Source of the DNA: a virus
Virus record (IMG/VR): IMGVR_UViG_3300044675_002010
Location: 1-32,665 of that record
Length of the DNA stretch: 32,665 bases
Strand: one strand, 5' to 3'
Shown: one piece after another, positions 6,155-30,245 of the stretch
Layout: each line of letters starts with the position of its first letter
Numbering within the stretch: the first letter of the stretch is position 1
Made by a program: the position numbers and the translations under genes
Notes under the pieces: generated by a model
What the model was told of the DNA's origin: nothing
The model's input: only the letters and a program-made list of their open reading frames with translations
Databases searched by the model: none

Positions 6155-7918
6155 ATGAATGAAAGTCTGCAAGTAGAATCATTGGAACCTGATGCACTGG
6201 CAAATAAAATTGCTGATATGTGGGTTCGATGGGATGATAACCGAGCACAGTGGAAAGCAGATTGCCTAGAGCTTCGGCAATATCTATTTGCAACTGACAC
6301 TCGTAAAACATCCAATTCCAAAAATAGCTGGAACAACAGTACAGTTACACCTAAACTAACACAAGTGCGGGACAATCTCCATGCAAACTACATGGCTGCA
6401 TTGTTTCCTTCTGAAGATTGGTTTTACTGGGAAAGCACTGAGAAAACACCAGATGCTTTGCGTAAACGTGAAAGTATTGTTGCATACATGAAGCAGAAGT
6501 TGAAGGCCAGTAACTTTCAACTTCTTACTTCACAACTCGTTTATGATTATATTGACTTTGGTAATGTCTTTGTCACTTATGATTTTGTAAACGATATGGT
6601 TAAAAGCGAGAATGGATATACACAAAAGTATATTGGGCCAAAAGCCTATCGTGTAAATCCATACGATGTCGTGTTTAATCCTGTCTCAACAGACTTTAAT
6701 AGCACGCCTCTTTTGCGGCGTATGCTAAAAAGTATTGGTGATTTGCAATATGATATTGACACAAAGCCAGCACTCGGGTACAATAAATCTGTAGTAAATA
6801 AAATTCTTGACTTTAGGCAAAGGATGGTTGCCGATGCTGAGTTTAAGAAAACAATTAGTTTGGAAATTGATGGCTTTGGAACTATTGACGAGTATATTAA
6901 CTCTGATATGGTTGAGTTGATTGAGTTTTGGGGTGACTTGTATGACATTACAACTCGCAAACTAGAACGTAATTTGCAAATCACTGTTGTTGATCGTCGT
7001 TGGATTTTGGCTAAACGAACAAACCCTTTGTGGACAGGTGCAAAGCCTTTCTATCATTGTGGATGGCGACTCAAGCCAGACCATCTTTGGGCACAAGGGC
7101 CATTGGATCAACTGGTAGGTTTGCAATATCGAATTGACCATTTGGAAAATTTGAAAGCTGACGTATTTGATCAAATTAGTTACCCAGTTATCAAGGTGAC
7201 TGGTAACACTGTTGAACAATTCGAGTATGAACCGGGTGCAATTGTTTTCTGTGGTGATGAAGGAAACGTTGAGTTTATGCGTCCTGACGCAACTGCATTG
7301 CAAGCTGATTTGCAAATTGAACAGTTGATGAATCGAATGGAAGAACTTGCTGGCGCTCCTAAACAAGCGATGGGTATTCGTACTCCTGGCGAGAAAACAA
7401 AGTATGAAGTTCAGAGCTTGGACAATGCAGCGGGCCGTATTTTCCAGAGTAAAACTCAATGGTTTGAAAAGAATATCCTTGAACCTCTGTTGAATGGTAT
7501 GCTTGCAGAGGCAGTTAGAAATTTCCAAGGTGTTGAGCAAATTAGAACTGTTGATCCTGACTTTAACGCTGAAATCTTTATTGAAGTGACAAAGGAGGAT
7601 TTAATTGCTAACGGAAAGCTATATCCTGTTGGCGCTCGTCATTTTGCAGAGCAGGCTAAGTTTGTTCAAGAACTGGCTCAGACAGTTCAAACTGTTCAAG
7701 CAATTCCGACAGTAGCCGCACATATTAGTGGTAAAGCAATTGCTAAGGCTCTTGAAGAGAATCTAGGATGGATGCGATATGGCATTGTTAAAGACAATGT
7801 AGCCATTATGGAACAACAAGAAACACAGCAACTTATTAACCAAGCACAAGAGGAAATGGCAGCACAAGCGGCTGTCAGTATGAGTGACCAAATGCCACCA
7901 GAAGCGCAAGGATTTTAA
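6155..7918 (+). CDS. portal (head-tail connector) protein
   Basis: A 587-residue portal, the dodecameric ring through which DNA enters and leaves the capsid. It is recognised by its length, its place between large terminase and scaffold, and podovirus-portal features: an N-terminal helical segment with W-rich DWFYWEST, the PYDVVFNP region around residues 169-176, GVQ-like GLQYRIDHLENLKADVFDQ stalk helices near 325-345, EYEPGAIV, and a glutamine-rich C-terminal helix (EQQETQQLINQAQEEMAAQ) that may form the barrel. AAAGGATTAA provides the start signal. Confidence 0.88.
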   Translation: MNESLQVESLEPDALANKIADMWVRWDDNRAQWKADCLELRQYLFATDTRKTSNSKNSWNNSTVTPKLTQVRDNLHANYMAALFPSEDWFYWESTEKTPDALRKRESIVAYMKQKLKASNFQLLTSQLVYDYIDFGNVFVTYDFVNDMVKSENGYTQKYIGPKAYRVNPYDVVFNPVSTDFNSTPLLRRMLKSIGDLQYDIDTKPALGYNKSVVNKILDFRQRMVADAEFKKTISLEIDGFGTIDEYINSDMVELIEFWGDLYDITTRKLERNLQITVVDRRWILAKRTNPLWTGAKPFYHCGWRLKPDHLWAQGPLDQLVGLQYRIDHLENLKADVFDQISYPVIKVTGNTVEQFEYEPGAIVFCGDEGNVEFMRPDATALQADLQIEQLMNRMEELAGAPKQAMGIRTPGEKTKYEVQSLDNAAGRIFQSKTQWFEKNILEPLLNGMLAEAVRNFQGVEQIRTVDPDFNAEIFIEVTKEDLIANGKLYPVGARHFAEQAKFVQELAQTVQTVQAIPTVAAHISGKAIAKALEENLGWMRYGIVKDNVAIMEQQETQQLINQAQEEMAAQAAVSMSDQMPPEAQGF

Positions 7919-8167: not shown

Positions 8168-8890
8168 GTGACCACTGAAACTATTTTTAAGGAAGGCCAA
8201 GACCAAGGCCAGCAAACCCCTCCAACGACACAAGGTAGTGGGGAAATCGTAGGTGCCCTCGTAGGTGATGGGCAAAAATACAAAACTGTTGATGAACTGG
8301 CAAAAGCCTATCTTCACGCAGATACTTTTATTCAACAATTGAAAGAAGAGAATCAAAAGTATCGTGAGCAAGCTATGGCAGCTAAGAGCATTGATGAGGT
8401 TTTGGAACGTATTGAACAATCGCAGCGAGTTCAACAGACTACCCCTGTTGAGCCTGAAAAAGTTGACATTTCTGCGCTTGTTGAACAAACGTTAACGCAA
8501 CGTGAAGCAAAGAAAATTCAAGAAGCAAATCTTCTTGAAGCAGATCGGCTGATGAAAGAACGGCATGGAGAACGTGCTATTGAACTGTTTAAGAGTAAGG
8601 CCAATACTCAAGAACTTCAAAAGCTGTATATGGACTTGGCTGCACGTAGCCCGCAAGATTTTGTAGCTTTGTTTGGTGAGTCTCAACCGATTGGTAATGC
8701 AATGCAGAGTGGCGCAAGTGTCAACTCTGTAAACATTCAATCTCATGGTACAAACCGAGAAAACATTGAAGGCACTAAAGAATGGTTTAGTAAGCTGCGG
8801 CGTGAAAAGCCACAACAATTCTATTCATCTGCAATGCAAGTTCGTTTTAGCAAAGCTGCAACAGAAAACCCCAAACTTTATTTCGGTTAA
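8168..8890 (+). CDS. capsid scaffold protein
   Basis: A 240-residue protein starting with GTG after AAAGGATTAA. The N-terminus is glutamine-, threonine- and glycine-rich and disordered; residues ~55-85 and ~105-160 are charged and predicted coiled coil (QQLKEENQKYREQAM; EAKKIQEANLLEADRLMKERHG). The C-terminal end is basic (FSKLRREKPQQFY), as in scaffold proteins that contact the capsid shell. It immediately precedes the major capsid gene, the standard position for a podovirus scaffold. No protease domain is visible. Confidence 0.8.
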   Translation: MTTETIFKEGQDQGQQTPPTTQGSGEIVGALVGDGQKYKTVDELAKAYLHADTFIQQLKEENQKYREQAMAAKSIDEVLERIEQSQRVQQTTPVEPEKVDISALVEQTLTQREAKKIQEANLLEADRLMKERHGERAIELFKSKANTQELQKLYMDLAARSPQDFVALFGESQPIGNAMQSGASVNSVNIQSHGTNRENIEGTKEWFSKLRREKPQQFYSSAMQVRFSKAATENPKLYFG

Positions 8891-8902
8891 GGAGAAAATT
8901 AA

Positions 8903-9868
8903 ATGGCAAGTTTTGATTATAGCAAGGTCAATGACCATCTGGTACGCACTGAACAGTGGAGTTCTTACCTCAAGGAAGTTCTGCAAGAAGACTTGATGGC
9001 TAAGGGCTATGTGCGTCAACTGGATGGCTTCACGGATGGCAACCAACTGACGATTCCCTCTGTCGGTGAAATGCCGATGCGTAACGTGGCAGAAGATTCT
9101 CCTGCCGTGTACGATGCTGCTGACACTGGTGAATTCACTTTCACGATTGACCACTACGTTGAGTCTGCATTCTTCATGACAGATCGCGCAAAGCAGGATA
9201 GCTACTACGCTTCGCAACTGCTGGCTATGATTCCTGAGAAGATGCGTCGTGCTTTGGACGAAGATTACGAAAGCAAGGTGTGGAGCCTGGGCAACACCCA
9301 AACGTTGAACGATGCTAACAGCATCAATGGCGCTGCTCACCGCTTTGTTGCTTCTGGCGACTCTAACACCAACCTGTCTCTGGAAGACTTTGCCAAGGCT
9401 AAGTTTGCTTTGGACAAGGCTTCTGCAATGGGTGCTCGTATCGCTGTGATTGACCCCTCGCAAGAGTTTGTGTTCAACAAGCTGATTGGCGCTCAAGGCT
9501 TCATTAACAACCCGCAATTTGAAGGTGTTGTGGTGTCTGGCCTGACTGGCAATGCTCCGAAGTTCATTCGTAACTTCATGGGCTTTGACGTGTACGTGTC
9601 GAACTTCCTTGGAACCCCGACCGACTCGGCTATTAACGCTGATGCTCGCGGTTCTGTTTCCACTCCGACTGCTCCTGTCTCCAACCTGTTTATGACTGTT
9701 GGTGGCGATCGCACTCCGTTTGTTGGCGCATATCGTCAACTGCCGCGTGTTGAGTTTGAACGGAACAAGGATTTGCGTCGTGACGAGTATGTGATGAACG
9801 CTCGCTTTGGCCTCAAGCTGTATCGCCCTGAGTGCCTCGTGTCTATCATCACCAAGAGCACCATCTAA
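8903..9868 (+). CDS. major capsid protein
   Basis: A 321-residue probable HK97-fold coat protein. Support comes from its position (after scaffold, before decoration and tail tube genes), its length, a very strong ribosome binding site (AAGGAG), and segments typical of podovirus coat proteins: EVLQEDLMAKGYVRQL, LTIPSVGEMPMRN, FTFTIDHYVESAFFMTDRAKQD, and a C-terminal R-rich segment EFERNKDLRRDEYVMNARFGLKLYRPE. Codon use shifts to CTG, GGC, AAG and ACC relative to neighbours, consistent with very high expression. A strong terminator lies just after the gene. A long antisense open frame (8825-10174) is a by-product of this codon bias. Confidence 0.92.
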   Translation: MASFDYSKVNDHLVRTEQWSSYLKEVLQEDLMAKGYVRQLDGFTDGNQLTIPSVGEMPMRNVAEDSPAVYDAADTGEFTFTIDHYVESAFFMTDRAKQDSYYASQLLAMIPEKMRRALDEDYESKVWSLGNTQTLNDANSINGAAHRFVASGDSNTNLSLEDFAKAKFALDKASAMGARIAVIDPSQEFVFNKLIGAQGFINNPQFEGVVVSGLTGNAPKFIRNFMGFDVYVSNFLGTPTDSAINADARGSVSTPTAPVSNLFMTVGGDRTPFVGAYRQLPRVEFERNKDLRRDEYVMNARFGLKLYRPECLVSIITKSTI

Positions 9869-9873
9869 TTGAC

Positions 9874-9893
9874 GGGGGATTTGTCCCCCTTTT
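9874..9893 (+). terminator. rho-independent terminator after capsid gene
   Basis: GGGGGA (9874-9879), a TTTG loop and TCCCCC (9884-9889), followed by TTTT. It would lower read-through into the downstream genes and so keep coat protein in excess. Confidence 0.85.
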
Positions 9894-9910
9894 AAGCAAA
9901 GGAATTTAAT

Positions 9911-10381
9911 ATGACTCGTAAATCTGTATGGACGAATGCTGACGGTTTGAAAGTTGGCTTTGGCCCTCAATTGGCTGACTTCTCTAGTCAAGGTGTGCAT
10001 CGTCAAACTGGCAATGAAGTGGTTGTGTCGTTTGTGCTTGATGGCGAAAAGTTTAGCGGCGGCACTTATCAGTTTGACTCGCAAGAAGTTGTTCCTGTTG
10101 GCGCTGTGCCTCTGTACGCTCATGTACGGGTGTCTGAAGCGTTTGTTTTGGGCGGTACTACCCCAACCATTCAAATTGGTGATGCTGGCTCTGCAACGCG
10201 ATTTGGCTCTCTCTCTGAGGCTAATGCTGAAGCACTCGGTACTTACACCACTTCGGTGACTGCTACGCCTCTCACGGCTGCTGGTACGATTGCAGTGACG
10301 CTTGGCGGAACAACCCCGACTGTTACTGCTGCTGGTCGTGCAACTGTGACTTTGGCTTACCGCGTTAACCCTGCGCTGTAA
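9911..10381 (+). CDS. putative head decoration protein
   Basis: A 156-residue protein rich in valine, threonine, glycine and alanine. It contains LGGTTPT twice (VLGGTTPTIQIGD at about 77-89 and VTLGGTTPTVTAAGRATV near 129-146), an internal duplication of a beta-type segment. It lies between two terminators directly after the capsid gene, so it is a transcription unit of its own or a read-through product. Position, composition and size fit a capsid decoration or stabilising protein. There is no signal peptide or membrane span. The function is inferred from context. Confidence 0.65.
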   Translation: MTRKSVWTNADGLKVGFGPQLADFSSQGVHRQTGNEVVVSFVLDGEKFSGGTYQFDSQEVVPVGAVPLYAHVRVSEAFVLGGTTPTIQIGDAGSATRFGSLSEANAEALGTYTTSVTATPLTAAGTIAVTLGGTTPTVTAAGRATVTLAYRVNPAL

Positions 10382-10390
10382 TTAAATTAA

Positions 10391-10416
10391 GGGGAGGCAG
10401 TTGCTTCCCCTTTTTT
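10391..10416 (+). terminator. rho-independent terminator
   Basis: GGGGAGGCA (10391-10399) pairs with TGCTTCCCC (10402-10410, one G-T pair) and is followed by six T residues. It is the second terminator within 550 bases and separates the decoration gene from the head-fibre gene. Confidence 0.88.
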
Positions 10417-12205: not shown

Positions 12206-14512
12206 ATGGCAGCACAGCCCTCACAAGAAGATTTTTTCTCGTTTGTTGGTGGTCTAAACACTGAGGGCGGGTATTTCCTTACTCCAAAGAATTCTTGGAA
12301 AGAAGGGGATAATGTTGTCCCTCAAAAAGATGGTTCTATTCAGCGTAGAAATGCAATCAACTTAGAACAAAACTATGTATACTCTGCCACTGGCATTGTA
12401 GACACTACAATTGATTCCTACGCTTTTTCTACACATATTTGGCAAGATGTTGGCGGCAATGGAAATAAAAACATTCTAGTTTGTCAGTTTGGACAATATG
12501 TTTATTTTTACGATGCTTCAACAACTACAACTTCTACAACTAAATATAGTTTTGAAATTTATCTTCCAGACTATCAAGCATTTGCCAATAGCAGCTTGAT
12601 TGGCGCTGCTGTAATTTCTTGTGCAGATTGCTATGGCAAACTAATCATCACTTCTCAAGACACAGACCCAATTGCAATTTTGTATGAGTCTGACACAGAG
12701 TTTGTTGTCAAACGTCTTGATTTGAAGATGCGTGATTTTGATGGTATTCCAAGTCCTATTTCTTCCGATCAAGAAAAGACACAAGCTGAATGGGAAAACA
12801 TTAACTTCTGGCCTGAAGCTCTTTACAATCTTTATAATCAAGGTTGGAAAGATGATAAACTTGCAGTTTATGTCACTAATACAGCCGGTAAATATCCTGC
12901 TAATAGTAAGCAATGGATTCGTGGTAAAAATACTACCGATGATTTTGACACAACAGTGTTGGCAAAAATTGACTTTGGAACTTCTCTAGCTCCAAAGGGA
13001 CGAGTTATTCTAAGTGCTTTTAATCAAGATAGAGCAAAATCTTTATTGACACTTGATATTAGAGGAACTGCACCAAGTAGTCCTTCAATAGTTTCTCGTT
13101 TTGCAGAAGGTTATTCAAACTATTATCAGAAAATCTTTTTTGATAATGTACCCTCCGTTGATGGATTAGCAATTACCACTGACGGGTATAGACCTGCTCA
13201 TTGTGCTTTCTATGCTGGTCGTGTTTGGTATGCTGGTCTTCCTTCTGGTGAAAAACTTGGCTGGATTATGTATAGCCAAATTGTTACTGATATTTCGAAA
13301 GTTGAGAATTGTTATCAGCAAAATGACCCAACTTCTGAAGTTATTTCTGATCTATTGGAAACTGATGGCGGTATTATTCAAATTCCAGAAGCAGGAAACA
13401 TTGTTGGTATGCAACCCCTTGGAAAAGGACTTGTTGTATTTGCAACAAATGGTGTATGGATGATCTCTGGTGCTGATGCTGGATTTACCCCTGTTAATTA
13501 CACTGTTGATAAAGTTTCTAATAATGGTTGTTTTGCACCACAATCTATTGTTAAGGCAAATGAATTTCTTTATTACTGGGGAATCTCTGGAATCTATCGT
13601 TTGAAGTATTCTCCATCAGAAGGTGTTGGAGTAGAATCTTTAACTGATACTACTATTAGAACTTATTTAATTGATATTCCAACATTCTGTAAAAAGTATG
13701 TTGAAGGTAAGTATAACGACAGTGAAAAAATTGTATATTGGCTATACTCAGATATTGTAGAAAGTAAGTTTAGGAAAAATAAACTTCTATGTTACGATAG
13801 TTATATTGGATGTTTTTATACACAAACTATTGATAATAGCCTAGACCCAACTGTAGTTTCTATTGGCGTGACAAAAGAAAATACAAATATCACAACTACA
13901 GATGTTATTGATGATTCTGCAAATCTTGTTGTAGATGACTCTGCAAATCAAGTTGTTGCTGATGTGCTTGAAGAAAGTGCAGGGGTACAGAAGATTAAGT
14001 TTGTGACTCTTGTGACAACAGGTGGCAACAAAAAGCTAACGTTTGGTGAGTATTCTTCTACACGAACAACGTTCAATGATTGGGTTTCTTACAACAATGT
14101 TGGTGTTGATGTTGCATCTTACGTTTTAACAGGGTATAATCTTGCCTCATCGGGGCCAACGAAAGCTAAGACAGGAAACTACATTGTAGCATTCTTGAAG
14201 CGCACAGAAGAGACATTTGATGCAGCCGTTGTTCCTACGCCACCATCTTCATGTTTGTTGCAAACACGATGGGATTTTACAGACAATGTAATTGCAGGAA
14301 AATGGAGTGACAACATTCAACTTTATCGTATTAACAGAGTGTTTTTTGGAACACCTTCTACAGATTATGAAAATGGTTATCCATTAGTTATAACTAAGAA
14401 TAAGATTCGAGGCAGAGGAAAGAGTATTCAAATGAAGTATTCTTCTGAAGCTGGAAAAGATATGAAACTTGTTGGATGGTCTGCTACTTTTACGAGTAAT
14501 TCTAATGTATAA
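12206..14512 (+). CDS. tail tubular protein B-like (nozzle)
   Basis: A 768-residue nozzle protein, the size and place of T7 gp12-like proteins. The N-terminus (FSFVGGLNTEGGYFLTPKNSWKEGDNVVPQKDGSI) is a classic start for this family: a protein that lists the GGLNT motif and RRNA-type turn. Later parts are beta-rich with propeller-like repeats (WYAGLPSGEKLGWIMYSQI; GLVVFATNGVWMISGADAGFTPVNYTVDKVSNNGCFAPQSIV; FLYYWGISGIYRLKYSP). Near residues 569-584 there is a tandem repeat DDSANLVV/DDSANQVV. Together with the gatekeeper it forms the tail tube that carries spikes and ejects DNA. AAAGGAATAAT precedes the start. Confidence 0.85.
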   Translation: MAAQPSQEDFFSFVGGLNTEGGYFLTPKNSWKEGDNVVPQKDGSIQRRNAINLEQNYVYSATGIVDTTIDSYAFSTHIWQDVGGNGNKNILVCQFGQYVYFYDASTTTTSTTKYSFEIYLPDYQAFANSSLIGAAVISCADCYGKLIITSQDTDPIAILYESDTEFVVKRLDLKMRDFDGIPSPISSDQEKTQAEWENINFWPEALYNLYNQGWKDDKLAVYVTNTAGKYPANSKQWIRGKNTTDDFDTTVLAKIDFGTSLAPKGRVILSAFNQDRAKSLLTLDIRGTAPSSPSIVSRFAEGYSNYYQKIFFDNVPSVDGLAITTDGYRPAHCAFYAGRVWYAGLPSGEKLGWIMYSQIVTDISKVENCYQQNDPTSEVISDLLETDGGIIQIPEAGNIVGMQPLGKGLVVFATNGVWMISGADAGFTPVNYTVDKVSNNGCFAPQSIVKANEFLYYWGISGIYRLKYSPSEGVGVESLTDTTIRTYLIDIPTFCKKYVEGKYNDSEKIVYWLYSDIVESKFRKNKLLCYDSYIGCFYTQTIDNSLDPTVVSIGVTKENTNITTTDVIDDSANLVVDDSANQVVADVLEESAGVQKIKFVTLVTTGGNKKLTFGEYSSTRTTFNDWVSYNNVGVDVASYVLTGYNLASSGPTKAKTGNYIVAFLKRTEETFDAAVVPTPPSSCLLQTRWDFTDNVIAGKWSDNIQLYRINRVFFGTPSTDYENGYPLVITKNKIRGRGKSIQMKYSSEAGKDMKLVGWSATFTSNSNV
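13910..13957 (+). repeat. 24-base tandem duplication in nozzle gene
   Basis: Two adjacent 24-base units (13910-13933 and 13934-13957), identical at about 20 of 24 positions, encode DDSANLVV and DDSANQVV. It is in frame and looks like a recent duplication of a surface loop. Confidence 0.8.
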
Positions 14513-14969
14513 ATTTCAATATGATGTTCCAATGGATATATTTTTAGATAAAGCTAAAGATATTCTTTATCGTCATTGGGAAGAATTAGCATTAAATAAA
14601 GATAAAATTCAACTATCTCCTGACAAAGAAAAATCTTGTAAATTGCAAGATATTGGCGTATTAAAAAACATTGTCATTTATAATGAAAATGAGGAAATAG
14701 TTGGATATTCTGTTTTGTTAATTCAACCTGCATTACATTATAGTTGTGATACTTTTGCTCATGTAGATATCATTTATGTAGATAAGCAATATAGGTCATC
14801 GTCACTTGGCGCAAGACTCCTTCTTGCTACAGAAAATATAGCAAAAGAAAATGGAGCAAGTGTAATTTTACACCATGCAAAGCCAAATGTCCCAATGATT
14901 ATTAAGCCATTGGAAAAGTTAGATTATAAACTATACGAGTTTATATACGGAAAATACTTAGGAGAATAA
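14505..14969 (+). CDS. GNAT-family N-acetyltransferase
   Basis: A 154-residue predicted acetyl-CoA-dependent acetyltransferase. The start at 14505 overlaps the nozzle stop by 8 bases. The GNAT core is VDIIYVDKQYRSSSLGARLLLATENIAKENGAS: a beta strand, then a Q/R-x-x-G-x-G/A-type acetyl-CoA loop (here YRSSSLGARL) and helix, followed by a strand ILHHAKPN and the C-terminal arm. The first half (HWEELALNKDKIQLSPDKE; IVGYSVLLIQPALHYS) matches the N-terminal arm and strand pair of the fold. Such genes sit in the structural operon of some phages, often just before internal virion proteins. The substrate is unknown; it could modify a virion or host protein. Confidence 0.8.
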   Translation: MYKFQYDVPMDIFLDKAKDILYRHWEELALNKDKIQLSPDKEKSCKLQDIGVLKNIVIYNENEEIVGYSVLLIQPALHYSCDTFAHVDIIYVDKQYRSSSLGARLLLATENIAKENGASVILHHAKPNVPMIIKPLEKLDYKLYEFIYGKYLGE

Positions 14970-14970
14970 T

Positions 14971-15387
14971 ATGGGTTATGTAGCAGCCGCTGCGGCGCTT
15001 TATTCTGCCGATCAACAAGCAAAAGCAGGGCGACAACAACAACGTGCTTTTGAAGCTGAACAGCGAAAGGCAGATATTGAAAATGTCTATAAAGCTAGAC
15101 AGTCTGTTAGGCAAGCCCGTATTGCACAGGCTCAAATGCAGTCCCAGGCTGCAATGACTGGTGGTGTTGGAGGTAGTGCTCTTGCTGGTGGTATGTCCTC
15201 TATTCAAAGTCAGCTTGGTGGCAATTTGAATTATATGGCATCAATTGCAGAAGAAAACACTGCAAGCCAACGTGCTCAAATGAACGCTGCTCGTGCTTCT
15301 ACAAATGCAGCAATTGCAGGTACTATTGGATCATTTGCTGGTTCTCAAGGTGGAAAAGACTTAAAGCAATTCTTGGGGGGTACTTGA
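14971..15387 (+). CDS. internal virion protein (T7 gp14-like)
   Basis: A 138-residue protein, alanine- and glutamine-rich. An N-terminal hydrophobic segment (YVAAAAALYSA) is followed by long helices (QRAFEAEQRKADIENVYKARQSVRQARIAQAQMQSQAAMTGG) and a glycine-rich middle (GGVGGSALAGGMSS). This is the composition of the small ejection proteins that form a pore in the outer membrane in T7-like phages. It directly precedes the two very large ejection-type genes. TAGGAGAATAAT gives a strong start; the stop overlaps the next ATG (TGATG). Exact membership of the gp14 family is inferred from composition and order. Confidence 0.65.
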   Translation: MGYVAAAAALYSADQQAKAGRQQQRAFEAEQRKADIENVYKARQSVRQARIAQAQMQSQAAMTGGVGGSALAGGMSSIQSQLGGNLNYMASIAEENTASQRAQMNAARASTNAAIAGTIGSFAGSQGGKDLKQFLGGT

Positions 15388-18300
15388 TGGAAGAATACTA
15401 TGAAACTGTGCCTGAAGAAACTCAACAAGAGGAAGGTGATTATCCAACCCTTGAAGAGATTCAAAGCGCACCTCCACCTGTAGAGCAGCCTGCTCCTGTT
15501 TTGCAGGCTGTAACTACCCTTGCAACAGGTGTTGAAAGCAAAGGGCCAGTTGATTATGTGAAACACCTAGATGAAGTTTATAGGCAAATTGCTCCAAAGA
15601 TTCAAGAACAAGAAAAACAATTTGCAATGGAAGGTGCAAAACTTGGCGATGTGAACTATGTTGGTTCTATTGTTCAAGATATGTATAAACGACAAGCTGA
15701 AATGAATGCTGAAAAAGCAAATCATATTCAGCGCTTTAGAGATGTTGCATCTGTTGCTTTTGATAATGTAGTGTTTAATAATACTGGTATCATCTACAAT
15801 AATACGCCAGAACAAATTGCAAAGTCTGCTGAGAGAACAATTAACACTGTAACTGTTGCTTCTACAATGGAGCGTTTGCAAAAAGAAAGTACACTGGCTG
15901 GGATGGCTGGGTCTTTTGCGCTTGCATTTACTCCGCTTGGAATTACAACAAATGTTGCACTTGGTAGTGCGGCAGAGAAATATATTGGCGAAGCATCAAG
16001 CAAAGTAAATTACGGAAAAACAATTGATGAGCTTCGCTATTTCTATACGACACTTGGTAGTGAATCAGAAAAAGTTTCTTTTATTCAAACATTCCAAAAA
16101 GAACTAGAAAATACTTGGTCATTGACTAAGTATGACTCTGTAAATATTTTGAATGAAATTGTTACTGAGCCAGAAGGTATTAGCACTGTTGGTAATGTAT
16201 TTTATTCTTCTGCCCCTCTTCTTGGTGCTATTCCTATTGTTGGACAAGTATCAAAATCTGCAAAACTACTTAGCGCTGCTAGTAAACTGAGCAAGACAGC
16301 AAAAGCTGAAAACATTGTTGCAGGTGTTGGAGGTAAAGACTCAATTGTTGAGGCTGCTGCAAGTGCTATGCGGCAAAAGGCTTTTCTTGGTTTGGCAAGT
16401 GAAGTTACTGGCGCACAAGGCGCCATAGACATCACAAACTTGGCAACTAAGGGTACAAGTGCTGTTCTTGGTAAAATGCTTCCTGATGCCATTACAACCG
16501 CTTCTGGCAAGGTTCAAGAAGCAATCCTAGAGTCTGTTGAGAAAGCAAATCAAAAACTGCGTTCTACAATTGGTTTGCAAAATGTTCGTGAGTCAGAAAT
16601 TGAAGATTTGATTAAAAGTCAAATGGTCAAGTATGACAAGAACATTGATAAGACATTGCACATGGTTCACATTGGACGCACAGAAAACGATCCATTTGGT
16701 GTTCTAACAACTGTTTTACGTGGCACGCAGGATGGTACTGTGTTCCTCACAAAAGAGGCTGTAGACGAGTATATTAAGGTTGCAGACCCATCTGGCAAGT
16801 TGGGATTGAAAGCTGTTAAAGACACTGCAAATAACACTCATGCTTTAACAGAAGAGTCTAAGAGGGCTTTGATTCTTGAGCGTGATGCTGCAATGGCAAA
16901 GATTGTAGAGATGCAATTGCCAAAGCAAGAAGTTCCTGTTGCAAAACCTGTTGATGGTCAAAAGCCTGTTGAAGTCTCTGGAAAACTTCCAAAAGAATTG
17001 GCTGGCGCAAAACCAAACTATGCAATTGGGCCTAGTAAGTTTGCATTGCAGTTTGATAGTGACATTGACAAAGCTGCTTTTATTGTATCTCAAACAAACA
17101 AGTCTAAGCGTGATGCAGACTACTTGCAATGGTTGAAAAATACAACAAAATGGTCTGATGGAGAAATTGCTGCACATGGCAAAAATGTTCGTGACTCTAT
17201 TAAAGGCCAAGCAAAAACATCTGAACCCGGCGTATTAAAAATTGCTCGTGTTGAAGCTGCCCCTGCAAAGGCAGTGGAGCCAACAGTTAAAGCTGCTGTT
17301 GAAACTACAAAACCTGCTATTGAGATTGCTGAAGGTTCAAAAGTTGATCCAATTTATCATACTCACAAGGGTGTGTTTTATGTTGGTAAACGTGGGATTG
17401 TTGTCGATTTAGAAGTTAAAAATAAAGAAACTATTGCAAGCCTTGACTCTAAAGAAAAATTTGACAATGCAGTAAAAGTTTGGGAAAAATGGTTGCCAAC
17501 AGATGAAAATGGCAAGCCATTAACAAAACAAGCAATTAAAGTTGTCAATGATATTCTTACAAAAGCAAAAGCAAATTTTGATAGTAATGGTAAATTCATT
17601 GGAAAACATAAGTACGCAACAGATATTGTTATTGGCAATTCTTTGCATAAAGGTGAAAGGTTTTTTAATACTGCGGAAGAAGCAAAGAATTTTGCAAATA
17701 CTTATGGACAACGAAAAACTGTTTCAAAAGCTACAGGCACCACCTTTGAAAGCACTAAAGCAGAGCAACAAGTAGTTGCTGATGCTATCCGTGGTAAATC
17801 TGTTCCAGAGCTTGCCAAATGGGCTCTTGAAAACTCTAAGTCAGAACTTGATAAGTTCGTCATGGCAAAAGTGTTTTCTCGTATTGAAGCAATGGAAAAG
17901 GATGGTGTAAAATTTACATTTGAATTGCTTGAAAGTGATAGTAGAAAACTTTCAATGTCAAATGCAAGAGGGATGGTTTCATCAAACGTTGTTCCTCTTG
18001 GACAACAAAAAGAAATTACACTTTCTTTGAATGGCCCTGTTAAACTTGAAAATCAGTTGAATTTCCCATCTGGGATGGATTTTGAAATTATTAAGCATGA
18101 ACTAATTCATGCTGCAACACAAGCTCATTACGGAACATCTGATAAAACAATTAAAGAACTTAAAGACCTTTTTAACACTGTTATTAAGGAATTTAATGTT
18201 CGTGCAAAAGAAGGTAAGCTAGAAGGTATTAGTCTTGAAACTTATAAGAGGCTTAATAATTTCTTAGAAAACCCTCAAGAGTTGTTGGCATGGGGATTGA

Positions 18301-21300
18301 CAAATGCCAAGGCACAAGAGTTTTTGCTTTCAATTAAAGTTGGTGAAAAAACTCTTTGGAGTAAACTTGTTACAATCGTAAGAAATGCTCTTGGTATTTC
18401 TAAGGATTATGAATCTGCATTTGATAGACTTCTTCGTGTTTCAGAGGATATTCTTGAAGTTCCTCCTGAACAAGTTAGAAAGTTTGTTGAGGCAGAAGGT
18501 TTGTCTCTTGGGAAAGCTGATGCTTCTTTGGTTGAAAAAGCTGGTGGATTTGGAACTAATCAACCTGCATGGGCAACTCGGATTGCAAAGAGTATAGATT
18601 CAGAGGTTATCTTTACAACTGATACAGTTGGTCTTGTAAAGGGTCAGAGTGTATCTGGAAAAGATATTTATCTTGGAATTTTTAAGAATGGTCAATACAC
18701 TCGTGTTGACATTGAAAAGTATACTGGTTCTGGTTTTTCTGCCGAAGAACTTAGCACGCTTCAAAAAGCAAAAGAAAATTACATCTCAAAAAATGTAGTT
18801 ACTCGTATGCAAGAGGGAGCAAGTGAAGAAGAAACTCTTAATAAACTCCAAGCCACTGTCGATCTTTCCAATGCACGATTGAAAGCTGCTTCTGATATTG
18901 AAAATGGCTTGTCTGCTGGTTGGCTTGTTGAAGAAAAAATTAAAGCAAATCTTAATGCCTCTTCATTAGGAAAATTCAAAGAAGAAGACATTCAAAGCAT
19001 GATGCGTTTTGCTTTTGGTGACAAAGCACTTGGAGCTTCTAAAGAAGTTTATGAAGCGCATTTGCTTGGTGTCATGGCGGAGTCACGTATTCGTGGCGTG
19101 CTGGTTGACATGGTTGAAAAGCCTATTCGTGCCTTGAATACAAAGGACAGGATTGCATTGAATAATGCTCTTGTGGCCGGAGACAAGGAAGGAAAGGTAT
19201 TTGATGCTGTAGAACTTCGTGGAATGGATTTGGTTTCTGATGAAAGTCAGAAAGCCTATTATGCTGTTCGTGCTGCTCGTGACATGACTTGGCGTTTGCG
19301 TAATCAAGCGGCTTCCAAGAGCATGACATTGAAGGGCTGGAAGGAAATGTGGCATCCTGCCATTGCAAAGTACAAGGATGAGCTACAAGGCTTCAAATTG
19401 TTTGGCAAGGAGGCAGATACATCAGCTATTGGAAAACGAGCCCTAGACCCCAATACGGGCGAAACTATGGTGATTTCTGCTAACAGATTGGAAGAGTTGA
19501 ACAATCGTGGATTTAAGATTGTTGAATTTGACACGCCTGTTCCTATGGCCGGTGTAAATCGCACCCATGTTATTGTGCAGGCTGGCGGACTTGAACTTAA
19601 AACTATCACAGAAGTGATTCCATACCGCACAGGTGAAATGAGCCGTATTTATGATGACGAATACTTTGTTCGTTTGAAAGGTAGCAAAGAACTTGACGGT
19701 TTGAAAGAAGATGTAAATATCACTCATCGCACAGCAAAGAGTGCTCGTGAAGCTAATGCTTATGCAAAGGCTTATAACGAGATGGTTGCTTTGTATAAAG
19801 AAGGAAAACTTGATACACAAGCCGCTGCTAAGATGCAAGCCTATGGATGGAAACCTGAAGATTTAATTGCTTCAATTGCTCAAAATCCAAAGGTTGAAGC
19901 TGTTGTAAATTACACACGAACTGACAATGACTATCTTGAGGCATTGACAAGTTATGGACGTAGTTTCACAAGTAAACGTGGCGAGCATATTCCTGATGTG
20001 TTTGGCAATACAACAAATGTTGCTGATCCTCTTGACGCTTTGGCTTCTGAGATTGGAAATACTGCGTACATGGCAAGTCACACTGAATGGTTTGATGTAA
20101 GCATTCAGCGTTGGTTTGAAACTGCAAAACCTTTCTTGTCTCCTGAAATGCAGAAGATGACTGCTGACAAAGCATTTGCAAGATATGTCACAACGAAGGG
20201 ATCATATGTAGGCCAAGGCAAAACTGAATTGTTCGTTAGGCGTGTTGCAGATCAAATTGCAGAAGCTATGAAAGTTAATGACAAAGAGAGCCGGCAAATG
20301 CTTGGCTTGATGCGTTCATTGACTGAATCTTTTGAAGCTAAAACTGGAAAGTTTGAAAACGTTGGCTCATTTATGCGTCAAACTAATTGGGAGTCTTTTG
20401 CAAAAACATTTGCCTTCCATTGTGTGTTTGCGTTCAATCCTGTACAACTTTTTGTACAAGGTGCCAACACTGTCAATGCAATTGCAATTAGTCCTTTACA
20501 TGGACTGAAAGCTGCAAAAACTTATACATTCTTGCGTGCTGCACTTACTTCTGACAATCCTGATGTCTGGGCAAAAATTGCTAAGACAAATAAATGGGCA
20601 AGCGTTGGGATGGAGAGTGAAGAAGACTTTATTCGGCTTGTAAAAGCAGTAGATAGGTCTGGCCTTATAGAAAACTTGCAAACAAGTAGCTTGTATAACA
20701 TGCAACTTGGCAAGCATAATTTGACAAAAGGTTTTCTTTCTGGTGATCTTGGAAGAGCAAGTAGTTTCTTCTTCCGTGAGGGTGAAGAGGCTTCTCGTTT
20801 GGTGGCTTTTGACATCTCTCGTCGTGAATGGATTAAAGCAAATCCAGGCAAAGTTTGGGACACGGACGAAGCATTAAAAGAAATTCTAGTGCGTCAAGAC
20901 ATGCTTACTGGTACAATGACAAATGCAAATACCGCATCTTGGCAGAAAGGACTGATTTCAATTCCTGCTCAGTTCTTGCAATTCCCAGTTAAGTTTGGTT
21001 TGAACATAGTAAATAGTTTGTTTGGTGGAAAAAGAACTTTTACACAGAAAGAAGCTCTTAGTTTGATAATTGGTAACTTGACTCTGTTTGGAACTGCTGG
21101 ATTGCTTGGCACAAGCCTTGCACAATCTGTGTTTGGTGACAGCATTGGAGAGTTGTCAGAGGATCAACGTCTGGCTCTTTCTCAAGGTGTTATTGCAAGC
21201 GCAGTTAGTGCAGTGACAAGTGCTTTTGATGAAGAAGGTGAAGGCGCACAACTGGCAATTGGTGATCGTATCAATCCGTTGAAATTCTATGTTGACTTTG

Positions 21301-21932
21301 TTAAAGGACTTGGAAATCTTGAAGAGGCAAAAGCTCTTGAGATGATTGGCGGGCCTTTCTTTGGGATGATACAACGTGTAAGATTGGCAGGATCACAGAT
21401 CAAAGACCTTTACGTTGTCAATCCAGACCTCTCTCCTGAAAAAGCATCTGAAGCAATTAAAGCACTAGTCAAGATAACTTCTGTTGGAAACAATTATTTC
21501 CAAGGTGTTAGGGCTGAAAATCTCTATAATCAGCACGTTTCTAAAGGTGTTGGTCAATACCGATTCAATGATAAAGAACTTTTTTATCAGAAGTATTTTG
21601 GTATTAAACCTGCTGCTGCTGTTGACTTTCAATCAATTACAGAGTCTAATATAGACTATGCAAAAAGAATGAAGAAGGAAGCAGAAAGAATCACTGATTT
21701 GAGAATTAAAGCGCTTGAAGCCTATAGAGCTGGTGATACAACCACTGGTGAAAAATATGGCAACATGGTAAATATATTGCTTTCAAGTATGCCTATCAAT
21801 GACAGAGCAGAAGTTGAATCAAAAACCAGGACAATAGATGCTTCCACTAAACTAGACGAAATGCTTGTTGAGCATATGCTTGAAAGAAGCGGAACGTCTA
21901 ATAAGTCAACAATGGTTATTAAACAACCGTAA
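15387..21932 (+). CDS. giant internal virion / polyvalent protein with zincin domain
   Basis: A 2181-residue protein, the largest in the window. The N-terminus is acidic (EETQQEEGDYPTLEE) and then helical, with a hydrophobic stretch near 165-195. Residues ~545-600 resemble a module seen in large phage proteins (FDSDIDKAAFIVSQTNKSKRDADYLQWL). A zinc metallopeptidase motif HELIH is at 904-908 with a likely third ligand Glu965 in ENPQELLAWGLTN; this pattern occurs in polyvalent phage proteins. The C-terminal ~500 residues carry FAFNPVQLFVQGANTVNA, ASWQKGLISIPAQFLQFPVKF and a hydrophobic segment near 1890-1915. No lytic transglycosylase motif was found. Order and size match ejected core proteins (gp16-like). 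Start ATG 15387 overlaps the previous stop; GGGGGG is its weak ribosome binding site. Confidence 0.75.
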   Translation: MEEYYETVPEETQQEEGDYPTLEEIQSAPPPVEQPAPVLQAVTTLATGVESKGPVDYVKHLDEVYRQIAPKIQEQEKQFAMEGAKLGDVNYVGSIVQDMYKRQAEMNAEKANHIQRFRDVASVAFDNVVFNNTGIIYNNTPEQIAKSAERTINTVTVASTMERLQKESTLAGMAGSFALAFTPLGITTNVALGSAAEKYIGEASSKVNYGKTIDELRYFYTTLGSESEKVSFIQTFQKELENTWSLTKYDSVNILNEIVTEPEGISTVGNVFYSSAPLLGAIPIVGQVSKSAKLLSAASKLSKTAKAENIVAGVGGKDSIVEAAASAMRQKAFLGLASEVTGAQGAIDITNLATKGTSAVLGKMLPDAITTASGKVQEAILESVEKANQKLRSTIGLQNVRESEIEDLIKSQMVKYDKNIDKTLHMVHIGRTENDPFGVLTTVLRGTQDGTVFLTKEAVDEYIKVADPSGKLGLKAVKDTANNTHALTEESKRALILERDAAMAKIVEMQLPKQEVPVAKPVDGQKPVEVSGKLPKELAGAKPNYAIGPSKFALQFDSDIDKAAFIVSQTNKSKRDADYLQWLKNTTKWSDGEIAAHGKNVRDSIKGQAKTSEPGVLKIARVEAAPAKAVEPTVKAAVETTKPAIEIAEGSKVDPIYHTHKGVFYVGKRGIVVDLEVKNKETIASLDSKEKFDNAVKVWEKWLPTDENGKPLTKQAIKVVNDILTKAKANFDSNGKFIGKHKYATDIVIGNSLHKGERFFNTAEEAKNFANTYGQRKTVSKATGTTFESTKAEQQVVADAIRGKSVPELAKWALENSKSELDKFVMAKVFSRIEAMEKDGVKFTFELLESDSRKLSMSNARGMVSSNVVPLGQQKEITLSLNGPVKLENQLNFPSGMDFEIIKHELIHAATQAHYGTSDKTIKELKDLFNTVIKEFNVRAKEGKLEGISLETYKRLNNFLENPQELLAWGLTNAKAQEFLLSIKVGEKTLWSKLVTIVRNALGISKDYESAFDRLLRVSEDILEVPPEQVRKFVEAEGLSLGKADASLVEKAGGFGTNQPAWATRIAKSIDSEVIFTTDTVGLVKGQSVSGKDIYLGIFKNGQYTRVDIEKYTGSGFSAEELSTLQKAKENYISKNVVTRMQEGASEEETLNKLQATVDLSNARLKAASDIENGLSAGWLVEEKIKANLNASSLGKFKEEDIQSMMRFAFGDKALGASKEVYEAHLLGVMAESRIRGVLVDMVEKPIRALNTKDRIALNNALVAGDKEGKVFDAVELRGMDLVSDESQKAYYAVRAARDMTWRLRNQAASKSMTLKGWKEMWHPAIAKYKDELQGFKLFGKEADTSAIGKRALDPNTGETMVISANRLEELNNRGFKIVEFDTPVPMAGVNRTHVIVQAGGLELKTITEVIPYRTGEMSRIYDDEYFVRLKGSKELDGLKEDVNITHRTAKSAREANAYAKAYNEMVALYKEGKLDTQAAAKMQAYGWKPEDLIASIAQNPKVEAVVNYTRTDNDYLEALTSYGRSFTSKRGEHIPDVFGNTTNVADPLDALASEIGNTAYMASHTEWFDVSIQRWFETAKPFLSPEMQKMTADKAFARYVTTKGSYVGQGKTELFVRRVADQIAEAMKVNDKESRQMLGLMRSLTESFEAKTGKFENVGSFMRQTNWESFAKTFAFHCVFAFNPVQLFVQGANTVNAIAISPLHGLKAAKTYTFLRAALTSDNPDVWAKIAKTNKWASVGMESEEDFIRLVKAVDRSGLIENLQTSSLYNMQLGKHNLTKGFLSGDLGRASSFFFREGEEASRLVAFDISRREWIKANPGKVWDTDEALKEILVRQDMLTGTMTNANTASWQKGLISIPAQFLQFPVKFGLNIVNSLFGGKRTFTQKEALSLIIGNLTLFGTAGLLGTSLAQSVFGDSIGELSEDQRLALSQGVIASAVSAVTSAFDEEGEGAQLAIGDRINPLKFYVDFVKGLGNLEEAKALEMIGGPFFGMIQRVRLAGSQIKDLYVVNPDLSPEKASEAIKALVKITSVGNNYFQGVRAENLYNQHVSKGVGQYRFNDKELFYQKYFGIKPAAAVDFQSITESNIDYAKRMKKEAERITDLRIKALEAYRAGDTTTGEKYGNMVNILLSSMPINDRAEVESKTRTIDASTKLDEMLVEHMLERSGTSNKSTMVIKQP

Positions 21933-21946
21933 TAAGGAAACATGCA

Positions 21947-24334
21947 ATGGTAAATAGGGTGGATATTACCCAAGCGTTGACACCCTCTACCCCTGATGTT
22001 ACGGGGGCTGTCAACGCGATTAGGAGTCAAGCCGGCATTGCTCAAACCCTCTTCGGAGGGATTTCTTCTATGCTTGGTGAGAAGAAAGCAGAGGATTTGA
22101 GGAAGCTACAAGAGGAAGCTGAACAAATCACTGCTGGTTCAATTAAGGCAACTGAATTAAGCAAGCAAGCAACAGAAGAATATCTTGTTGCAAAGAGAAA
22201 GCAAGAATCTGCTTTACAAAATTTAAGTGGTTCAGAAAAAACATCCACTGAGCAAGATAAAACTCTTCCTTTTGAAGCAGATATTTTTAGTGCTGCTAAT
22301 AAATTAAAAAATGCTCAAGAACAAGGTGCAATTAACCAAGTTCAATTTCTGGACAGGGTTACAAACCTTGTCAATAAATATGCAGGAAAATATCCTGGCT
22401 CAAAAGAAGAAATTCGTGCAATTGTATCAAAAGGGACTGGCCTTCCTGGTGCTGACTTGTGGGCACAAAATCAATTTGTTGAACGTATGTTTACTCCTCC
22501 AAAAGCTGCTGACACAGATAAGACACTTAGGGAGGCAAAAAAAGCAAAAGACGAAGCGATTGCAAAATATAATGGCGTATTCTTAAATGATGTTATAGAT
22601 GCTGAAACAAGCAACCCAAAACTGTATACACAATGGGCTGCAACTGCAAGTACAATTATGCAATCTGAAGCTGCAAAAGCAGCAAGAGATGCAGCGGCAG
22701 GTAACATCACTTCTGCTGGAAATATTGGTTTTAGAGAGTTTACAGACAAATCTGTAGATGGAGCTTCTCTTAGTAGTGTCGCAAAAACTCGTGAGTTTTT
22801 TACAGCTAACAAAGGGGAAATGTCAAAAAGAATTGACAACCTTTTGCGAATTACAGACCCAACTCCAGAGAACATTGCAGAAATCAATTCTACACTTATT
22901 CAACTTTCAAACATTGTTGAATCTGAATTTAATGATGCAAGGGCAAATGTTCTTCAAAATTACAGTTCTTCTGTTGCACCAGAGGTTAGAGATGACGCAC
23001 TAAAGCGAATTGACCAGACAAAACAATCAATAGTTGATAAGATTAAAACTGGCGATTTAGCACAAAAACGTACAATCTTGGAACTTTTTAACGCTGCAAA
23101 TACAACAACTCGTAATGACAATCTTAAAATGATTGCCGTTGCAGGAGATCAACTCAAATACTTTGCATCTAATCCAACAATCATTAACGCACTCTCAGTG
23201 GATGAATACAATAAAGATGGTACTAAAAGTGCAGAATGGCAAATACTAGAAGCACGTTCTAGCACTCTTGCAGAACAACTTAGAGCTCATAAAAAACGTC
23301 TTCTTTCTATGCCTGTTGATGTACCTGCTCCAAAGCCATTTTTTGTTACCGCAGCGGAAGATGCACAGCAAAATCCAAATGCTACGCCAACAGGCCCAAC
23401 ACCGCAAGAGACAAAAGCCGCTAATGATTTAGTTGCTCTAAATGCTGCAACAATTTTGAAGGCTTCAGCAATTGTAAAAGCTCAAGGTACAATGGGTGGT
23501 CTTGGTGCAGTTTCAACAGAGATTGCAACTGAAATGAATAAAGATGCAAACGTTGTTGGAACTTCTCTTTCAAATGTTGGGTATGGTAGGTCTTTAACTC
23601 TTGTTTCACAAAACGAAGAAGGATATAAGACATTTATAAAAAATCTTAATGAAGAAAGTTTGACCCCTCTTAAACAAGCAGGAAGTCTTATTTATGAAAA
23701 GTCATTGTCTAGTGCTCAAAAAGGTGTTTCTGATATTAGTAAGAAATATGGACTAAAGACACCTTTGCAAATTGGTGTTATTCCAGGAACAAACAAAGTT
23801 GGTATTATTCCTCCACCTAAAGATTATTTTGAAGATGTTAAAACAACATCTCCTTATGGTAGAGGATTTAGTGCTCCTGCTGAAAAAATCCAAACAGTTC
23901 CAGCGCCATTCACTCAATACTTCATTGGTAAAACAGTAAAACCAGAGTATGTTGTTGAAGTGAATAAACTTGCTTCTGCTGCTCAAGAATGGAATAATAC
24001 ATATCTTCCCCGTGTTATGGGGTCAACTATGACACGAAGTATTTATACTGGCGAATCAAAGGAAAAAGTAGCTAATGAAATTGCTAATCTTGTCAGTGGT
24101 AATAAACCTATCACTGGCTTTTTCACTATTCCAGTGCCACAAACAGCACCAGCGGGAACCGCAGCAACAGGAGGTGGAGTAGAGGTTGGTATCCAAGGTG
24201 TCGGTGGTGGAGCTGATCGTCCAGAAAGACTAGATATTGAAACACTCAGGAAAATGGCAAACAGCGACGCACTCCCCTCAGAAACAAGAGCTAAACTCGC
24301 TGCAATTGTAGCTGACATGGAGAAAAATAAATAA
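21947..24334 (+). CDS. large internal virion protein
   Basis: A 795-residue protein after the giant gene, probably a second ejection/core protein (the place of gp15-like proteins). The start at 21947 has AAGGA eight bases upstream; ATG at 21942 is too close to that site. The protein is largely helical: EKKAEDLRKLQEEAEQITAGS and later coiled-coil segments, with linkers rich in Pro/Ala and a glycine-rich tail (GTAATGGGVEVGIQGVGGGADRPER) before a short terminal helix. No enzyme motif is visible. The stop overlaps the endolysin start (TAATG), so both are translated together. Function is inferred from context. Confidence 0.6.
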   Translation: MVNRVDITQALTPSTPDVTGAVNAIRSQAGIAQTLFGGISSMLGEKKAEDLRKLQEEAEQITAGSIKATELSKQATEEYLVAKRKQESALQNLSGSEKTSTEQDKTLPFEADIFSAANKLKNAQEQGAINQVQFLDRVTNLVNKYAGKYPGSKEEIRAIVSKGTGLPGADLWAQNQFVERMFTPPKAADTDKTLREAKKAKDEAIAKYNGVFLNDVIDAETSNPKLYTQWAATASTIMQSEAAKAARDAAAGNITSAGNIGFREFTDKSVDGASLSSVAKTREFFTANKGEMSKRIDNLLRITDPTPENIAEINSTLIQLSNIVESEFNDARANVLQNYSSSVAPEVRDDALKRIDQTKQSIVDKIKTGDLAQKRTILELFNAANTTTRNDNLKMIAVAGDQLKYFASNPTIINALSVDEYNKDGTKSAEWQILEARSSTLAEQLRAHKKRLLSMPVDVPAPKPFFVTAAEDAQQNPNATPTGPTPQETKAANDLVALNAATILKASAIVKAQGTMGGLGAVSTEIATEMNKDANVVGTSLSNVGYGRSLTLVSQNEEGYKTFIKNLNEESLTPLKQAGSLIYEKSLSSAQKGVSDISKKYGLKTPLQIGVIPGTNKVGIIPPPKDYFEDVKTTSPYGRGFSAPAEKIQTVPAPFTQYFIGKTVKPEYVVEVNKLASAAQEWNNTYLPRVMGSTMTRSIYTGESKEKVANEIANLVSGNKPITGFFTIPVPQTAPAGTAATGGGVEVGIQGVGGGADRPERLDIETLRKMANSDALPSETRAKLAAIVADMEKNK

Positions 24335-24702
24335 TGTTCAAATTCAGCCAACGTAGCAAAGAGCGCCTTGTTGGTGTAGACCCCTCACTTGTTAAAGTTA
24401 TGGAAGAGGCGATTAAAGCCTCTCCATACGATTTTTCAATCACTGAAGGGGTACGTACCAAGGAACGCCAAAAAGAGCTGTATGACGCTAAAAAGAGCCT
24501 TACTTTGCAATCTAAGCACCTAATTGGGAAAGCTGTTGACATTGCTGTGTTTGTAGACGGAAAACTCACTTGGGAACACAAGTATTATCTTTCCGTAGCA
24601 ACACACATCAAAGCAGTGGCAGAGAAGCTAGGTGTTAAGATTATCTGGGGAGGTGATTGGCGCAGGTTGGTCGATGGGCCTCATTTTGAACTAAAGGAAT
24701 AG
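24334..24702 (+). CDS. endolysin, M15 peptidase
   Basis: A 122-residue cell-wall peptidase of the VanY/M15 family, which cleaves peptide crosslinks or stems in peptidoglycan (L-alanyl-D-glutamate or D-Ala carboxypeptidase type). The zinc ligands are visible: SKHLIGKAVD gives His62 and Asp69 (SxHxxGxAxD) and DGPHFEL gives His117. ITEGVRT (36-42) and IWGGDW (104-109) are conserved around the active site. There is no signal peptide or wall-binding domain, so it is a single-domain, holin-dependent lysin, as in T5-type endolysins. The holin gene follows two bases after its stop. Confidence 0.9.
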   Translation: MFKFSQRSKERLVGVDPSLVKVMEEAIKASPYDFSITEGVRTKERQKELYDAKKSLTLQSKHLIGKAVDIAVFVDGKLTWEHKYYLSVATHIKAVAEKLGVKIIWGGDWRRLVDGPHFELKE

Positions 24703-29298: not shown

Positions 29299-30245
29299 GA
29301 AAATGCTTTCTCGTTCCAGTCTCGTCGGTATTCTTTGCCAATGCCAGCAAAGAAGTCGTTAAATGCAAACCCTGTAATGTCTTTGTAAAACCACTCTGCA
29401 ATCGGATTGTACTTTGGTTTATACAAAGCCTTCAGGCCGAGATTTTTAAGGCACAGGTCAATTCGGTGTTCCACAAAATGTTTCATCTGCGTAGCCGTAA
29501 TACCTGATATTTCACCCACCTCAAACACTTTGTCAATAATGAGTGTTTCGTGTTGATACAGTATTTTTGCAGCATCGTAAATTTTCTCCGATACGTCGCC
29601 ACCAATTTGCTCTTGCAGGGCACGATAACACCAAGCCCCCGCTTCTGCATGTAGGGCTTCATCACGTACCGAGAATGCAATGCCACGACAAACATTGTTC
29701 AGTTTGTTTTTTCCGTTTGCTTGGAAGTGCTTAAGGAATGCGAAAGCACTATACAACACAGCACCTTCGACAAGGCTAAATACAGCCGTTGAATATAGGT
29801 CATCTTCATCACTTAGTGCCTTGTCAATAAACTCCATCCGTTCTTTCAGGTCTGGGTCTTCCACGTAGCTTGTGTAAAAACTGTCAGTGCTTACGTTCAA
29901 AGCCTCGTTCAACTTGGCATAGAACGGAGCATGCACAGCAAGCTCAAACATGGAGAACACAGAAGCCATACGTGTAAACTCTGGCCGAGGGAATGTCTTT
30001 ACAAAGCGGCTTCCCCAATACTCTCCACCAGCACGAAGCTCATACAACGTGAACAATCGAAGCGTTGTAAGAACTCCATGCTTCTCTGCCGGAGTCATGT
30101 CAACAAGAATGCTTTGAACATCCTTCTCAACGTTGATTTCCCCAGGCAACCAGAAAATCTCAAGCTGCCTGTCTGCATACTCAATAGGAACTTTATACTT
30201 TGCTACAATACTTTCTGTTGGAACTTGGATGTCAGCGGAAGTCAC
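29292..30245 (-). CDS. nrdB: ribonucleotide reductase small subunit (class I NrdB)
   Basis: A 317-residue beta subunit that houses the metal cofactor and radical. GTG at 30245 is chosen because GGAGG lies 5 bases upstream; a longer frame to 30350 lies inside the mazG gene. Ligand candidates: Glu69 (TLYELRAGG), Glu101 and His105 (FELAVHAPFY), with Tyr109 at the radical position; in the second half Glu160 (SLVEGAVLYSAF) and Glu196/His199 (RDEALH). The second ExxH is canonical. The first is ExxxH rather than ExxH, which needs checking against phage relatives. The C-terminal tail (DWNEKAFSW) should bind NrdA. Confidence 0.93.
   Translation of the reverse strand: MTSADIQVPTESIVAKYKVPIEYADRQLEIFWLPGEINVEKDVQSILVDMTPAEKHGVLTTLRLFTLYELRAGGEYWGSRFVKTFPRPEFTRMASVFSMFELAVHAPFYAKLNEALNVSTDSFYTSYVEDPDLKERMEFIDKALSDEDDLYSTAVFSLVEGAVLYSAFAFLKHFQANGKNKLNNVCRGIAFSVRDEALHAEAGAWCYRALQEQIGGDVSEKIYDAAKILYQHETLIIDKVFEVGEISGITATQMKHFVEHRIDLCLKNLGLKALYKPKYNPIAEWFYKDITGFAFNDFFAGIGKEYRRDWNEKAFSW

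Follow-up and report, generated by a model that had tools for sequence, protein, structure and literature searches.

A GNAT-family protein gene between the tail and ejection-type genes of an uncultivated phage, and the place of its relatives in other virion operons

The GNAT gene and its operon

The window, by which we mean the whole stretch of 32,665 nucleotides that was analysed (positions 1 to 32,665 of IMG/VR virus record IMGVR_UViG_3300044675_002010), contains the virion operon of a short-tailed phage, in which an open reading frame for a GNAT-family protein follows a tail gene and precedes two ejection-type genes (Table 1). The initial annotation had described this frame as an acetyltransferase gene overlapping the nozzle gene and lying ahead of the ejection-protein genes, an arrangement that is borne out by the ORF coordinates and by the matches to PF00583, phrog_1249 and phrog_12003.

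Table 1. Features of the GNAT locus in the window
Feature	Coordinates	Strand	Size	Remarks
Tail/nozzle gene, of the type of tail tubular protein B	12206..14512	+	768 aa	phrog_8094 'tail appendage', E = 1e-151
Start/stop overlap, GNAT ATG inside the end of the tail gene	14505..14512	+	8 nt	Same overlap in L015-L019
GNAT-family acetyltransferase ORF	14505..14969	+	154 aa	ATG start, TAA stop; Pfam and PHROG matches, AlphaFold2 model, PDB fold matches, conservation
Small ejection-type protein (putative)	14971..15387	+	138 aa	phrog_8168, a PHROG of unknown function
Giant internal virion (ejection-type) protein	15384..21932	+	2182 aa	phrog_12003 'internal virion protein', E = 3e-45

The overlap with the tail gene was present in 5/5 of the closest relatives, two of which (L018 and L019) encode identical GNATs, and it may couple the translation of the two genes. 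At the other end, the GNAT stop codon ends one base ahead of the ATG of the next gene. The product of the latter would, from its position, be an ejection-type protein corresponding to T7 gp14 or P22 gp7; its family is also present in L252, a distant podovirus homologue. The giant protein had no match in a Pfam search. In another relative, L006, the gene in the position of the nozzle gene is annotated 'tubular tail B', and 16 ORFs among the best 80 of 584 IMG/VR loci were matched when the nozzle of the window served as query, as many as with that of L006.

When the window was compared with its nearest relative, L015 (87% identity), the dN/dS of the GNAT gene was 0.10, similar to that of the tail gene (0.13), which shows, at the level of sequence, that the ORF is under purifying selection. 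Because of this value and of the matches to PF00583 and phrog_1249, we consider the ORF to be more than a chance open frame. Another long frame, of 449 aa (8825-10174, minus strand), runs antisense to the major capsid gene and is probably a chance or codon-usage effect. The window also carries a gene for an M15-type, endolysin-like peptidase downstream of the ejection block (24334-24702), and genes for the large and small subunits of ribonucleotide reductase at 27652-30350, on the minus strand, opposite to the virion operon.

Family, predicted fold and candidate active site

The product of 14505-14969 was confirmed to be a GNAT-family protein. It matched the Pfam GNAT model PF00583 with an E value of 7.3e-9 (36.4 bits, the curated cut-off being 20.7) and phrog_1249, 'acetyltransferase', with an E value of 4e-12. 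PF11090, the family of T7 gp13, and PF11039 (DUF2824), the family of P22 gp14, had no match in the window record. An AlphaFold2 model built on a 57-row alignment had a pLDDT of 94.8. Compared with the PDB (1000 chains re-aligned), this model gave Z scores of 14.7-16.2 over 130-150 residues for the 50 entries listed, the best match having a Z of 16.2 with 143 aligned residues and an rmsd of 2.5. Nearly all of these 50 listed entries are titled acetyl- or acyltransferases; other titles are borne by 1z4e, called a 'transcriptional regulator', and by 4f6a and 4e0a, which are BH1408 entries.

The fold neighbours include spermidine, aminoglycoside, glucosamine-phosphate and protein acetyltransferases. 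Since they span so many substrates, the fold itself names none. The spermidine acetyltransferases (2b5g and 2b4b, Z about 15) and a weak match to the NCBIfam PaiA model (E = 0.017, far under its cut-off) would agree with a small-molecule enzyme, acting for example on polyamines, that alters the charge of the cell or of the packaged DNA and sits in the virion operon only for the timing of its expression. A related reading is in print for Roseobacter phages CRP-4 and CRP-5, whose GNATs are described as acting on host metabolism (PMC6918029). A CRP-4 GNAT was the rank 19 fold match of the window model, which is a fold match and not proof of the same gene family. We regard a small-molecule substrate as quite improbable, the breadth of the fold neighbours leaving the spermidine entries with little weight and none of the NCBIfam models having scored above its own cut-off with the window GNAT.

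The acetyl-CoA loop of GNAT proteins has the motif Q/R-x-x-G-x-G/A, and their general base is often found nine to ten residues ahead of the loop Arg or Gln, in strand beta 4. At the loop position R97...G102 the window protein reads RSSSLG, so that the first Arg and the last Gly are kept and the inner Gly is a Ser. D88 stands nine residues before R97, in what we take to be the acidic general-base position of beta 4, as in Gcn5 and SSAT. Conservation of these residues was determined in alignment A4, which comprises 57 rows (the window and 56 of the best 80 of 584 loci) picked by eye, apparent near-duplicates and incomplete copies being excluded. H24, A29, G67, Y68, H78, Y79, D88, R97, L105 and K126 were invariant (57/57), it being understood that the patterns used for retrieval impose part of the conservation in the stretches 24-33 and 35-44, but none of that at the other residues. 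G102 was present in 56 of the 57 rows, and the inner-Gly column of the loop was variable across the family.

A smaller alignment, A1, had 11 rows: the window, nine tblastn finds and L013, which came from a pattern search with a single sequence. In it, G67, Y68, H78, Y79, D88, R97 and K126 were again present in every row and G102 in 10/11. When five more distant podovirus rows were added and L013 was omitted (A6, 15 rows), R97 was still found in all 15 and K126 in 14, while D88 and H78 were each found in 11 and G102 in nine. The distant podovirus homologues L252, L254, L255 and L256 have Leu at position 88 and, as judged by eye, Glu one residue before; in these proteins H78 is aligned with a gap and G102 is replaced by Phe or Cys. 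The invariance of the cleft residues in 57/57 rows of A4 favours, as far as can be told from an alignment, a catalytically active enzyme. The fold prediction is of high confidence, and in close relatives the residues proposed for the active site are kept, not broken.

Gene contexts of the relatives

Relatives of the window GNAT were found in 23 phage records, of which 14 were examined. In 12 of these 14 the GNAT gene lay directly before ejection-type genes, or before unnamed genes in that place. These 12 comprised ten Zobellviridae, Pseudomonas phage PfAn1, where annotated internal virion proteins follow the GNAT, and MW202796, where the genes that follow are hypothetical. The Zobellviridae acetyltransferases of phrog_1249, such as those of Vibrio phage 1.253.O and phage KZY1, belong to the same family as the window GNAT (34-41% identity over the aligned part) and occupy the same slot, the order being tail gene, GNAT, small gene, giant gene. 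In 1.209.O the gene upstream of the GNAT is a different one and the downstream pair is retained. In the other two examined records, DC33 and VPv81, the GNAT gene stood before the gene for the head-tail connector (portal). A GNAT gene before a J-type hub gene was seen in none of the 14 examined phage records. A scan of genome contigs gave 3 loci.

Limnohabitans phage DC33 (L001) also carries, at 6354-6980, a gene resembling Asp/Asn beta-hydroxylases (PF05118, E = 6e-14), which stands between the GNAT gene and that of the large terminase subunit. The taxonomy line of its record says Inoviridae, yet a terminase and a head-tail connector are present.

Among uncultivated phages in IMG/VR, 584 relatives were found, and the context proportions given here hold for the best 80 of them. 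The GNAT gene was in the podovirus slot in 17 of these 80 loci, in a siphovirus tail-hub/J context in 57 and before a portal gene in five, one locus (L094) being unclassified. Among the loci of this set with enough room (4 being omitted from tiling), a same-strand upstream neighbour lay within 60 nt in 60/61, and a same-strand ORF of at least 500 aa was found within 3 kb downstream in 55/55. In the siphovirus-type loci of the best 80, the hub gene was the next gene in 57/57. Thus, the GNAT gene precedes a gene for a delivery protein in both main types. A 210-aa tail gene preceded the GNAT in 53 of the 57, the other four being loci that begin only 3-123 nt ahead of the match. Locus L031 (GNAT at 9947-10399) illustrates the order, which is tape measure, distal tail protein, 240-aa protein, 210-aa tail protein, GNAT and a hub of the Phage-tail_3/J type.

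As the majority of these relatives belong to tail operons of siphoviruses, the link is with the virion operon generally and extends beyond ejection proteins. With 57 of the best 80 (of 584) loci in such operons and five before portal genes, the neighbours fix no single substrate.

In a tree of 71 rows, which is provisional because several of its branches are long, the contexts changed 4 times, the minimum possible being 3 and the mean after shuffling 27.5. One podovirus group lay within the siphovirus clade; the clade of the window had the portal clade as its neighbour. Because the changes are so few, the GNAT gene appears, provisionally, to have moved between virion modules, and to have done so rarely.

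Comparison with T7 and P22, and possible function

The slot of the window GNAT, between nozzle and ejection genes, is that of gene 13 in T7 and of gene 14 in P22, the latter lying ahead of the ejection genes 7, 20 and 16. To our knowledge there is no settled mechanism for the gene that stands between the tail and ejection genes of these two phages. A structure prediction for T7 gp13 (28 rows) had a pLDDT of 94.3, and its strands and helices follow one another much as in GNAT proteins. Against the PDB it gave Z scores of 10.9-12.1 for the 50 entries listed, most of them titled acetyltransferases. T7 gp13 is therefore predicted to have a GNAT fold. Among viral proteins, a member of DUF2824 was moderately similar in fold to the T7 gp13 model (E = 8.4e-5, TM 0.53, rmsd 6.5). 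Of the titles listed in literature searches on P22 gp14 with acetyltransferase and on DUF2824, none concerned a GNAT fold of P22 gp14.

The three families could not be connected by their profiles. Comparison of the window, T7 gp13 and P22 gp14 families with hhalign gave probabilities of 0.08-0.25%, in the range of the controls (0.05-0.50%), which were four proteins or families, three of them single sequences, and did not include a positive control. The HMM of the window family found no link to T7 gp13 or P22 gp14. Profile searches of the PDB gave 0 matches for T7 gp13 and, for the P22 gp14 family, designed 'Cake' proteins alone, with E values of 0.027 or worse. Homology is therefore claimed no further than the shared fold.

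T7 gp13 also differs from the window GNAT by its acetyl-CoA loop, which is not conserved in its family (of its 28 rows, 3 have the loop Gly and 4 the loop Ala), and it looks like a version in which the fold was kept and the loop lost. The window protein could likewise be a catalytically dead protein of GNAT fold, a chaperone or scaffold that aids the loading of ejection proteins, as T7 gp13 may be. The Pfam name of the T7 gp13 family, 'probable scaffold protein', and the missing inner Gly in the loop of the window protein agree with this. The invariance of D88, R97, H78, Y79 and K126 in all 57 rows of A4 goes beyond the apparent needs of a scaffold, and makes a dead protein rather unlikely.

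By profile, the T7-group protein closest to the window family was not gp13 but gp7, the 'host range' protein. The profile of phrog_2746, which contains T7 gene 7 (L261 831-1229), matched the window GNAT with an E value of 3.6e-6 over 67 profile positions (2.8e-4 in another search). In the other direction, the HMM of the window family matched the host specificity protein A of ICP3 (5e-6, with Z set to 1000), T7 gp7 itself scoring 1.1; the E value of gp7 in BLASTP with the window GNAT was also 1.1. This similarity is weak, the window-type residues are only partly kept in T7 gp7, and the gene is placed on the upstream side of the portal gene, from which 7.3 and 7.7 separate it. It may be that T7 has two proteins of GNAT fold, gp7 as well as gp13.

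The two profile matches, with phrog_2746 and with the ICP3 protein, raise the prospect of a host-directed GNAT of the T7 gene 7 type, made late, perhaps packaged in small amount, and placed in the virion operon for late expression only. The signature of the family, which stays constant while its neighbours switch from nozzle and ejection genes to tail hub and to portal, is consistent with such an enzyme. Its place amid virion genes in the 79 loci that could be classified (among the best 80 of 584) argues against it, as does the virion proteome of the T7-like phage phiPsa17. The text on the latter names homologues of gp6.7, 7.3, 8, 10, 11/12, 14, 15, 16 and 17, the sole further protein reported as detected being gp9 (PMC4517105). 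The homologues of gp13 and gp7 are thus not among the detected proteins named there. (In the main text of that paper, VO98_195 occurs once, in the gene table.) Packaging of the GNAT had no support in the present results. We hold a host-directed enzyme to be a real possibility, albeit an unlikely one; the proposal made in the initial annotation, that the protein may be injected and modify a host target such as a defence factor or RNA polymerase, is neither supported nor contradicted by our results.

The arrangement itself is real and common, and has been noticed before. In marine podoviruses, the GNAT 'pc40' of SIO1 and the cobaviruses lies beside internal virion proteins and was suggested as a possible counterpart of T7 gp13, with a role in virion morphogenesis (PMC6775973). 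An acetyltransferase between T7-like gp12 and gp14 is listed in PMC10142737, and the products listed after the tail tubular gene of Hafnia phage Ca include both an 'Acetyltransferase' and an internal virion protein of the K1F type (PMC8861465). What the present work usefully adds is the wider spread, into the slots before the siphovirus hub and the portal, together with the fold predicted for T7 gp13. The presence in this slot of a family that looks catalytically intact calls for caution before such GNATs are called host-metabolism genes, as were those of CRP-4 and CRP-5.

In 21 records that had been selected by their matches, the GNAT was of the phrog_1249 type in 15, of the PF11090 type in 4 (T7, ICP3, Pf1 ERZ-2017 and HTVC025P) and of the PF11039 type in 2, and two types were found together in none. 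A phrog_2746 gene was also present in T7 and ICP3 (14 records searched). We do not argue for one GNAT type per phage, because of this selection, because of the phrog_2746 genes of T7 and ICP3, and because of the two products listed for Hafnia phage Ca.

The explanation that we tentatively prefer, giving it somewhat less than an even chance, is that the window GNAT is a working enzyme, made late, whose targets in the producing cell are the phage's own proteins for DNA delivery. Membership of the GNAT family with the predicted fold, the conserved place in the virion operon, the conserved cleft residues and purifying selection are the steps of it established above. The GNAT would be expressed late from the virion operon, bind acetyl-CoA at R97-G102 and use D88, on beta 4, as its general base. 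The acceptor would be an amine, either an N-terminus or a lysine, of a delivery protein encoded in the same operon, the candidates being the small or the giant ejection protein in the window and the tail hub in siphoviruses. The GNAT itself would stay out of the virion or enter it in traces alone. Its functional counterpart would be the accessory gene that separates the tail genes from the ejection genes, gene 13 in T7 and gene 14 in P22.

The initial annotation had suggested acetylation of a virion protein during assembly. The slot shared with T7 gene 13 and P22 gene 14, the predicted fold of T7 gp13 and the absence of gp13 from the virion proteins named for phiPsa17 fit this part of the proposal; the siphovirus tail operons in which most relatives lie do not fit a role specific to ejection proteins. 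A family with an intact-looking active site in this slot offers a direct test of the function of the slot, namely of the acetylation of ejection proteins.

A broader explanation would be that a single GNAT module, common to several tail types, chemically modifies the DNA-delivery machine and has shifted among the slots for ejection, tail hub and portal, with T7 gp13, T7 gp7 and P22 gp14 as further versions, some of them catalytically dead. We consider this unlikely as it stands; if it were true, virion assembly would generally include an overlooked step in which ejection or hub proteins are acetylated. In the papers on phages JG068 and DE10, an acetyltransferase is named between the RNA polymerase and portal genes.
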